Origin: a virus
Length of the DNA stretch: 64,000 bases
IMG/VR virus record: IMGVR_UViG_3300027902_000001
Coordinates: 1 to 64,000 of that record
Strand: one strand, 5' to 3'
This document shows positions 31,439-41,660 of this stretch, piece after piece. The notes under the pieces were generated by a model, which saw only the letters and a program-made list of their open reading frames with translations, was not told where the DNA came from and ran no database searches. The position numbers were made by a program, and so were the translations under genes. How positions within the stretch are numbered: position 1 is the first letter of the stretch; every line of letters starts with the position of its first letter.

Positions 31439-31636
31439 TTAGCCTCCGTAGTGCCAGACTTGGGTGCCGACCGGCAGGCGCTTGCACTTGGGTCCGCCAT
31501 GCCAGTCACGCAGGTATGACCGGAACTCCTGCTCGCCGATGGGTTCACGGAACTCGAATGCGCCCAGCGCGTAGGCGTCCAGCGAAAACTTGGCCGACCA
31601 ACGTGCGCTTTTACGGGACATGCTACGCTGGCTCAT
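31439..31636 (-). CDS. Small basic protein, unknown
   Basis: The 65-residue protein starts at the ATG with GGGAGG upstream, overlapping the ATPase gene end by 14 bases. It has a basic start and an aromatic, Gly-rich end. Function unknown. Confidence 0.5.
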   Translation of the reverse strand: MSQRSMSRKSARWSAKFSLDAYALGAFEFREPIGEQEFRSYLRDWHGGPKCKRLPVGTQVWHYGG

Positions 31637-33092
31637 GGTTGGCCTCCCGCCACGCGCAGTACATCTTACGCGCCTTGATGTAGATGCTCGGATCGTCGGC
31701 GCAGTATTCCATGACGCCGACCGACAACTCACTGATCTGGTTGGCGTGTTTGCGCGTGCAGTCGCTCGCGCCCTCACTGGCGACGTGGGCCGCCTCATGG
31801 ATGACGACGGTGACGAAGCGTTCCCACGACCACTGGGAGATGTGGTCAGTATTCAGGATGATGCGGGTGGCGTCACCTGCGCCGTCGCACTCGTCCTTGA
31901 GCGCCCGACCCTCGATGGGCGTTTCGACCATGCCGCAACACGCCAGTAGGGTCTGCGCGGCGTGCAGCACCGGCTCCGGGATGGGTTTTTGGAGCGCCTG
32001 TTGCGCCTTGACCGTCACGATTTCGGAGACGTTAGGGATGGCGTCCGTCACCCACGCCGGCGGCGCGTAGTAGCCGGTCAGCACCTTACTGTTGGTCATC
32101 GCCGACGCGTCGGCAATCTGGGCCGCGTCGTCCGCACGCGTGGTGGCCCAGGACAGCTTCTTGAGACCCGCGGTCATCTTGAACTGCTTGACGCCGGCCG
32201 CGACAATGCGGGCCGGGGGCGCTTGCATGAACCGGAACTCCTCCGGTTGCGCGCCGTAGTTGGCGGCGTATTTGAGGACGGCGGCGATAGCGTCGGCGTC
32301 CGCGTAGCGGGCGAAGATTTCGCCGCATTCGGTGCGGACGTGCTCCCAGGAGAAGGCGGCCCGGTCGCGGCCGGGCGATTGGGACACGTTGTAGCTGAGC
32401 GCCAGGTTCCACTGCTCGCCGACCCGTTGGCCGCGACTGTACAACTGGCCGGCTTCGGTGATGATCAGCGGCGAGGACGCCTTGGGTGGCCGGTCGGCCA
32501 GGTTGACGCCGACTGCCGCCAGCTTGCACTGCAAGTGCGGATAGACGGCGTAGTTGAGGCCCGGATGGCGGGCGAAGGCTTCATAGGCGTTGGCCGCGTC
32601 CCGCGCTACGCCCGGCCCGGCATACGACCAGTAGGTGCCGCGGCGGGGCGTGGCAGTCTGGTACACGTCCAGCGTGAGCACCTGCTTGCCTCCGCCGTTA
32701 TAGTTGGCCAGCCGACCGGTCATGAGCCAGTCCTGGGACGCCAGCAGCTTGACGAAACCGCTGCGCGCGGCGACCAAACTGGAGATCATTTCGCCTTCGC
32801 CGTGCTCGCCGACCGTGGCGTCGTCGCCACGCTTGCCGGACTGGCCCAGCAAAAGGATGGTGTCCAGATCGACGCCGCGGCCGCTGTCGGCCAGGGTGAT
32901 GTGGTCGGCGTCGATCACGGTCAGGGCGGGCGCGCACTTGGCCGTCAGGCACTCGTCAAGTTGGTTCTGGACGGATTCCTTGACGGCCTTGGCCGCGTCC
33001 CAATCCGGCACGTAGTCGGCGCTGAGAATGGTCTGGATGGTTTGCGCGTAGGCGTAGGTACGCCCATCCAGGACGATGTTAGTCGGTGACAT
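31623..33092 (-). CDS. GHKL ATPase fused to an HExxH metallopeptidase-like domain
   Basis: The 489-residue protein has GHKL (Hsp90/histidine-kinase fold) ATP-site motifs. K-E-S-V-Q-N-Q-L-D-E (38-47) is the N-box, A-D-S-G-R-G-V-D (68-75) the first Gly motif, and G-E-H-G-E-G-E-M (95-102) the second. The last 80 residues carry V-I-H-E-A-A-H (HEAAH at 432-436), the zinc site of metallopeptidases, plus nearby His and Glu. GHKL proteins such as T4 rIIA exist in phages, but I know of no described GHKL-HExxH fusion of this kind. GGGGAGGAG precedes the ATG. Domain calls are motif-based; activity is inferred. Confidence 0.65.
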   Translation of the reverse strand: MSPTNIVLDGRTYAYAQTIQTILSADYVPDWDAAKAVKESVQNQLDECLTAKCAPALTVIDADHITLADSGRGVDLDTILLLGQSGKRGDDATVGEHGEGEMISSLVAARSGFVKLLASQDWLMTGRLANYNGGGKQVLTLDVYQTATPRRGTYWSYAGPGVARDAANAYEAFARHPGLNYAVYPHLQCKLAAVGVNLADRPPKASSPLIITEAGQLYSRGQRVGEQWNLALSYNVSQSPGRDRAAFSWEHVRTECGEIFARYADADAIAAVLKYAANYGAQPEEFRFMQAPPARIVAAGVKQFKMTAGLKKLSWATTRADDAAQIADASAMTNSKVLTGYYAPPAWVTDAIPNVSEIVTVKAQQALQKPIPEPVLHAAQTLLACCGMVETPIEGRALKDECDGAGDATRIILNTDHISQWSWERFVTVVIHEAAHVASEGASDCTRKHANQISELSVGVMEYCADDPSIYIKARKMYCAWREANHEPA

Positions 33093-33399
33093 CGGACTCC
33101 TCCCCTGCTTTGATCTGTGCGGCGCGCACCGCGGCCATACGTGCGGTCATGCGCTTGACGCTGCGCAAGTTGTAACCGAGCGACTCCAGTTCCTCTTTCA
33201 GGTCGGCGTATTCGTTTGGCGCGGCCGGCCTGGTCCAGCCGGTGATGCCAACTGATGCCGCGCCATGCTGACCGACGTGCATGCAGGACAACATCCTGTA
33301 GTAACCATCTGCGATCTCCGGGAACAACGCAATGACATCTCCGTCGCCGTCCTTGAACTTGCGGAAGATGACGGTGGTCTGTGCAGTGTCTTGCTCCAT
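33079..33399 (-). CDS. Small conserved early protein, unknown
   Basis: The 106-residue protein starts at the ATG with AGGAGGATTATT upstream. It has I-F-R-K-F-K-D-G-D-G-D-V-I-A-L-F-P near its start, a segment seen in small phage/bacterial proteins of unknown role, then C-M-H-V-G-Q-H-G. It overlaps the ATPase start by 14 bases. Confidence 0.6.
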   Translation of the reverse strand: MEQDTAQTTVIFRKFKDGDGDVIALFPEIADGYYRMLSCMHVGQHGAASVGITGWTRPAAPNEYADLKEELESLGYNLRSVKRMTARMAAVRAAQIKAGEESDVTD

Positions 33400-40916: not shown

Positions 40917-41660
40917 ATGCCCCACCAACCCCGCTTACCGCGTAAGACGCGCGCCAGAGCGGCCTTCGAGGCCGCCGAAGCCCTGCATACCGTGCAGGAG
41001 GCCGAGGCTGACCTGCCGCCGGAGCCTGCGCCGGACCTGCCGGATGATTACTTCGCGCCGCCCAAGCCGAAACACAACGACCTGGCCGCCCGCTCCACCG
41101 GCGTGCCCACCGGCAGCATCGGCTACATCTCGCCGGTCTACAAAAAGGCCAGCGGTGGGCTGCACCCCGCCTGGGACATGGACGAGGTCATCGCCGCGAT
41201 CCGTCGCTACGAAGGCAACTTGAACATGGCGGCTAAGATGCTCGGCGTCACGCGTCGCATGTTGGACTACTACCGCCGCGACCAACCCGAAGTGCAGGCG
41301 GTTTGCCAGGAAGAATGGGAGAGCCGCCTGGATAACGTCGAGGGCGTGCTCTACAACCGTGCCCTGCACGGCGAAGGTTGGGCGGTGTGTTTCATGCTCA
41401 AAACGCAAGGCCGCGGGCGCGGCTATATGGAGCGAGAAGTCTCGCTCAACATGAAACTGGACTTGAATCAACTCAATGACGAACAACTCAGACGCATCGC
41501 CAATGGTGAACACCCCGCAGTCGTTATGGGCGGTCCGCGCACAAGCGGTGCTGGAAGCGCGGAAACGGGGCCTGACGGAAACGTCGTCGAAGGCGAAACC
41601 CGACTTCTTATGGGAGGCCCTACCGAAGCAGAAGCTGGCGCTACGGAATCCGGCGACTGA
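40917..41660 (+). CDS. terS: Terminase small subunit
   Basis: The 247-residue protein has a Fis-type helix-turn-helix (N-M-A-A-K-M-L-G-V-T-R-R-M-L-D-Y-Y near residue 102), typical of small terminases that recognise packaging sites. It lies between a methyltransferase and the large terminase. Its last 185 bases overlap the large-subunit gene in another frame; that tail is Gly/Glu/Ala-rich. Confidence 0.75.
   Translation: MPHQPRLPRKTRARAAFEAAEALHTVQEAEADLPPEPAPDLPDDYFAPPKPKHNDLAARSTGVPTGSIGYISPVYKKASGGLHPAWDMDEVIAAIRRYEGNLNMAAKMLGVTRRMLDYYRRDQPEVQAVCQEEWESRLDNVEGVLYNRALHGEGWAVCFMLKTQGRGRGYMEREVSLNMKLDLNQLNDEQLRRIANGEHPAVVMGGPRTSGAGSAETGPDGNVVEGETRLLMGGPTEAEAGATESGD

Follow-up and report, generated by a model that had tools for sequence, protein, structure and literature searches.

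Most of the known ATP-dependent proteases are built from a peptidase and an AAA+ unfoldase. Zincins include Wss1 and SPRTN, the WLM and SprT-like DNA-protein-crosslink proteases, in which the third metal ligand is a histidine; to our knowledge, none of these proteins is fused to a GHKL ATPase. The minigluzincins abylysin, jannalysin and selecase are stand-alone proteins with a minimal zincin scaffold of ~105 residues and glutamate as the third ligand. In the mini-zincin Acel_2062 (PF06262, HEXXHXXGXXD), a stand-alone protein of 114 residues with no GHKL domain, an aspartate just after HExxH was proposed as the third ligand (PMC3890501). Phage rIIA consists of an N-terminal GHKL module and a variable C-terminal part (PMC7824862), and in polyvalent proteins of phages and plasmids zincins serve as tools of processing or attack (PMC5512222). 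Here we describe a phage gene whose product, P0001 (489 residues), joins a GHKL ATPase to a C-terminal domain with a predicted zincin fold, and works like no single one of the known systems. The gene lies in positions 1 to 64,000 (the window, that is, the whole stretch analysed) of the virus record IMGVR_UViG_3300027902_000001, which has 73,495 bases and belongs to a tailed phage, judging by its terminase and portal genes.

A GHKL ATPase joined to a mini-zincin

The first-pass annotation placed three GHKL ATP-site motifs and a C-terminal HEAAH in one protein at 31623-33092. These coordinates are right and the strand is minus, since the plus frame over the same interval is broken by stops; the ATG is at 33092, the stop codon at 31623-31625, and the purine-rich sequence AGGGGAGGAG sits immediately upstream of the ATG. 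Both halves of the protein were also borne out, with intact N, G1 and G2 boxes and HEAAH at residues 432-436. The gene and its domains are as follows.

31623 to 33092, minus strand: whole gene of P0001, GHKL ATPase, transducer-like domain and C-terminal mini-zincin (phrog_6077 E 7e-20, AF2 model)
32619 to 33092, minus strand: GHKL ATPase domain, residues 1-158 (Foldseek matches to TopoVI-B, MutL and GyrB; VIA Z ~10 to TRAP1 and GyrB)
32163 to 32480, minus strand: transducer-like middle domain, residues 205-310 (VIA alignments to GyrB and Hsp90 reach about residues 289-335)
31626 to 31997, minus strand: C-terminal mini-zincin domain, residues 366-489 (AF2 fold, structural and profile matches)

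Structure prediction, which had been proposed as a check on the HEAAH domain, gave a clear outcome. Residues 366-489 folded alone (AF2, with 33 relatives) adopt a zincin layout with high confidence (pLDDT 94.3, pTM 0.88), that is, a helix, three strands, the HExxH helix and two more helices, and HExxH sits on the active-site helix of this predicted core. The closest fold is that of Wss1 (VIA Z 8.5, 93 residues, 2.5 A); other matches include BepA, Spartan and the minigluzincins selecase, jannalysin and abylysin (the latter group with a TM to the target of ~0.5-0.62), as well as YbeY-type structures (VIA: 1oz9 Z 7.5, 7y7o Z 6.0). When a profile of the family was compared with the PDB, the matches were almost all zincin metallopeptidases, Acel_2062 among them (E 0.011). 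No Pfam model reached its cut-off on the zincin tail in the members scanned; the weak sub-threshold matches were to SprT-like, the commonest, and DUF2201_N, and SprT-like scored 18.8 bits on the isolated domain of P0001, under a cut-off of 25.6. The stretch that precedes the zincin (about residues 310-365) is poorly conserved and has low pLDDT. The C-terminal domain thus has, by its model, the zincin fold, and the residue set H432, E433, H436 and D444 predicts a zinc peptidase.

31785 to 31799, minus strand: HEAAH, residues 432-436, with predicted zinc ligands H432 and H436 and catalytic E433
31761 to 31763, minus strand: D444, candidate third zinc ligand, invariant in alignment A1
31746 to 31748, minus strand: H449 at position D+5, alternative third ligand, His or Phe in the family

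The pattern HExxH-x(3-12)-D-x4-[H/F], placed after the same GHKL-transducer module, is found in 53 of 55 distinct relatives and in 6% of shuffles; in L018, one of the two that do not fit, D-x4-F is present after a longer loop. The second histidine and the aspartate are seven residues apart in P0001 and about 3-13 in the family, and position D+5 of the fitting relatives is occupied by His in 25 and by Phe in 28. Members of alignments A3 and A5 were picked by HExxH, so the invariance of H, E and H in them is circular, a problem avoided by a hidden Markov model (HMM) with these three positions masked. This model still retrieves the domain, and of the nine proteins that it recovered from outside the alignment, seven have an intact HExxH with an Asp after it and two, L061 and L017, are degenerate. 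The motif is therefore kept in homologues, and the lack of conservation that the first-pass annotation had set against its own claim was not what was found. To the extent that a predicted fold allows a check, the other outcome it had named, a C-terminal domain without a zinc site, was not seen either. The two degenerate proteins, L061:5974-7293 (EELAH) and L017:2944-5037 (MAAHRK), retain the C-terminal domain without HExxH and are candidate pseudo-peptidases.

The candidate for the third ligand came out differently from the Glu or His that had been expected. No polar residue downstream of HExxH is as constant as the aspartate, which makes D444, from the alignments, the likeliest third ligand; no glutamate after HExxH, the type of third ligand used by minigluzincins, is invariant or 90% conserved in alignments A3 and A5. 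In contrast with Wss1 and SPRTN, the constant residue here is Asp; P0001 does have H449 where a SprT-like or WLM third histidine might be sought, but half of the family has Phe. Acel_2062 is a precedent for an aspartate, yet it has five residues between the second histidine and Asp versus seven in P0001, which does not keep the exact HEXXHXXGXXD spacing.

The ATPase half carries the following motifs.

32955 to 32978, minus strand: N box, E39-x3-N43-x2-D46 (sequence motif)
32874 to 32888, minus strand: G1 box DSGRG, D69-S-G-R-G73, residues 69-73 (sequence motif)
32793 to 32810, minus strand: G2 box GEHGEG, G95-EH-GEG100, residues 95-100 (G95, G98, E99 and G100 invariant in 69 family rows)
32361 to 32369, minus strand: family motif RDR, residues 242-244 (R244 in all 69 rows, R242 and D243 in 67 of them)

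All three boxes are canonical (ExxxNxxD, DxGxG and GxxGxG), a G152-T153 pair is also present, and E39 and R244 join the four G2 residues as invariant positions of the 69 rows. The AF2 model of the whole protein is most like topoisomerase VI-B, MutL, GyrB and Hsp90/TRAP1, and contains a Bergerat fold (Foldseek 1mx0 E 1e-4). By its motifs and model, P0001 belongs to the GHKL ATPase superfamily, and ATP binding and hydrolysis are predicted. The phrog_6077 match of P0001 covers profile positions 3-128 of 366; P0002 matches the same profile over positions 4-301 (E 3e-36). Phage GHKL proteins of PHROG 6077, such as the HATPase of Vibrio phage VPMS1 and ORF14 of Edwardsiella phage KF-1, share the GHKL and transducer-like module and the RDR motif; the isolate members examined (307-408 residues) stop after the middle domain, have no zincin and have the G1 Asp replaced. 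In the alignment of 69, this adenine-binding residue has given way to Asn, Ser or Thr in most phage members. The canonical G1 Asp is confined to zincin carriers by count (with the split L027 taken as one); a test that took the tree into account could draw on just 2 independent pairs, and it gives no information on linkage.

Spread of the fusion

The proposal that ATPase and peptidase motifs in one protein would be a new arrangement held in part: the fusion of GHKL and zincin fold is real, and it belongs to a widespread family and is not peculiar to this phage. Moorella phage MTATph1 (CDS0173) and Exiguobacterium phage 132 (CDS 00137) encode proteins with the same full architecture, both labelled hypothetical protein, with HETLH and HETIH, respectively, followed by a GAxDxT-type motif; they are ~21-22% identical to P0001 and have Phe, not His, at D+5. 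The same fusion is encoded by plasmids of Streptomyces, Alkaliphilus and Aneurinibacillus, by 34 uncultured virus contigs, and by cellular genomes or metagenome-assembled genomes of Bacillota (including Desulfofundulus), Aerophobetes, Micrarchaeota and other archaea. Full-length fusions are rare in cells: 398 genomes from a single bacterial phylum yielded 3; in one archaeal phylum any match was found in 7 of 196 genomes, several of them partial or split. Selection appears to keep both domains joined, given that phages, plasmids, Bacillota and archaea all have the same fusion. The HExxH label needs ~4-6 changes on the GHKL tree versus 20.9 for shuffles, which indicates that the zincin was inherited with the ATPase, with few losses or gains. 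It is, then, an unannotated and widely dispersed GHKL-mini-zincin family.

Several members depart from the common plan. The Alkaliphilus plasmid protein L019:1921-5232 has three GHKL-transducer repeats and then one zincin, and the Aneurinibacillus plasmid protein L020:2374-5250 several such repeats and one zincin, an arrangement that recalls the triple repeat of sacsin. Streptomyces plasmid members (L015:2911-5028 and L018:2938-5022; 695-706 residues) have ~200 extra conserved residues after the zincin. At L027:1052-2429 GHKL and HExxH-D are encoded by two open reading frames that overlap, with ambiguous bases and a possible assembly error, and in the archaeal genome G482 (L091) each of the two domains has an open segment of its own and the match contains an in-frame TGA, consistent with a pseudogene, a split gene or recoding. 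An archaeal virus may also hold a relative: the 595-residue protein A0A3Q8Q6V3 of a Sulfolobales filamentous virus, labelled structural in BFVD, aligns with the P0001 model over 593 columns (E 4e-12).

Gene neighbourhood

The gene of P0001 shares its strand with the DnaB and DnaD-like loader genes, and terminase and portal run opposite, which places it in a non-structural, presumably early block. It follows a small gene with which it is probably translationally coupled.

33079 to 33399, minus strand: preceding small gene, 106 residues, whose end overlaps the P0001 gene by 14 bases

A family search with the C-terminal 97 residues of this small protein gave no match. The region around P0001 has no nucleotide match to known phages, no close relatives of P0001 were present in the viral or genome contigs searched, and the terminase shares no more than 34-39% identity with the best-matching proteins of named phages. 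Relatives of P0001 are often near genes for a UvrD-type helicase, a DNA polymerase or a ligase-like protein (names from sequence or record annotation, not profiles); these neighbours are shared by several loci, but they are common in phage early regions, and no conserved neighbour is common to the loci of the relatives and the window. Elsewhere in the window, genes for an N6/N4 DNA methyltransferase and a Fis-type helix-turn-helix protein (39453-41660, plus strand) directly precede the large terminase gene, and the window yielded a single tRNA gene, for tRNA-Glu (TTC), at 22360-22432, minus strand.

Proposed function and alternative explanations

The reading we favour, at about an even chance, is that P0001 is an ATP-gated metallopeptidase of the non-structural block, acting on an early host or DNA-associated target. 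By analogy with GyrB, MutL and Hsp90, ATP binding would dimerise the N-terminal GHKL modules; dimerisation would swing the transducer, and its movement would bring together or uncover the two C-terminal zincin domains for the cleavage of a specific protein. That target would most likely belong to the host or be associated with DNA, and be encountered at an early stage of infection; this is the weakest step, and it is weakly favoured by the position of the gene and the neighbours in relatives. A broader claim, that the family forms a new class of ATP-gated proteases of phages, plasmids, bacteria and archaea, in which control over the fused zinc peptidase lies with a GHKL clamp of the gyrase/Hsp90 type instead of an AAA+ ring, is tentative. 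An anti-defence or takeover role, as suggested in the first-pass annotation, is likewise hypothetical. A role in DNA-protein-crosslink repair was considered from the top match to Wss1 and set aside, since the Z of Wss1 is little different from those of selecase and BepA and the fold thus does not point to this role in particular. Neither P0001 nor any of five relatives was matched by PADLOC.

Several observations weigh against a gated protease. No assay is known on any family member, and D444 was picked as candidate third ligand by conservation and not by side-chain geometry. The HExxH of two relatives is degenerate and many GHKL relatives carry no zincin domain, so not every member of the family would be a protease. 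In the GHKL tree P0001 has the longest branch (2.92 changes per column), and its residue 102 is Met, against Lys in 68 of 69 rows, so that Glu-Met follows GEG in place of the Leu-Lys or similar pair of nearly all relatives; its ATPase may for these reasons be weakened. P0001 keeps the G1 Asp, a position that Asn, Ser or Thr occupies in more than half of the relatives.

An alternative that we regard as unlikely, suggested by the use of zincins in polyvalent proteins, is that the zincin is an internal processing domain that cuts its own protein or a partner and frees the GHKL module as the working end, perhaps as a chaperone or DNA clamp. Its C-terminal placement fits this, zincins were proposed for autoprocessing in P1 DdrB-type proteins (PMC5512222), the GHKL-only members would equal the processed form, and the plasmid proteins L019 and L020 combine three GHKL repeats with one zincin; but many phages have GHKL-only forms by gene structure, with no need for processing, and the linker at about residues 310-365 is poorly conserved and has low pLDDT. 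Polyvalent proteins combine several conflict-related effector domains with a zincin and are delivered with the virion or by conjugation; P0001 has only two functional domains. The zincin could also lack peptidase activity and serve in substrate recognition as a pseudo-peptidase, a metal-dependent binding domain or a nuclease domain, which seems less probable still. The YbeY-type matches point this way, YbeY being an RNase with a related metal motif, as do the two relatives that keep the domain without HExxH and a family for which no activity is known; the YbeY motif, however, is HGxxH, the catalytic Glu is kept here except in the two degenerate members, and the PDB profile matches are almost all zincin metallopeptidases.

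Similarity to rIIA raises a further explanation, that P0001 is a divergent counter-defence factor that shields infection from an exclusion system as T4 rIIA does, with the zincin as one of the variable C-terminal domains known from rIIA orthologues. Foldseek against BFVD gives many RIIA proteins (E 2e-6 to 4e-4), a distant fold match. Nevertheless, the likeness lies mainly in the GHKL module, non-rIIA phage GHKL proteins are better fold matches, no rIIA PHROG matched P0001 at a limit of E 10 (one relative reached E 0.03), and no rIIB-like protein was matched among ten neighbours scanned, in which small genes were not all included. By sequence P0001 falls outside the rIIA family, and we consider this explanation quite improbable. 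That HExxH arose by chance in an ordinary phage GHKL protein has a negligible probability: the motif does appear in 1.1% of P0001 shuffles (0.28% within the last 120 residues), and the confident zincin fold, the conservation of HExxH and Asp in distant relatives and the recovery by the masked HMM rule it out.

Significance

For the fusion of a GHKL ATPase with a zincin no published account was found in the open-licence literature, although papers outside it may exist. The family has lacked a useful annotation (hypothetical protein, HATPase) and has no described function in the libraries searched. If ATP-gated proteolysis by P0001 is true, a GHKL switch on a mini-zincin would be a different way of controlling proteolysis, and the presence of the fusion in unrelated phages and plasmids suggests a common job in entry or takeover.
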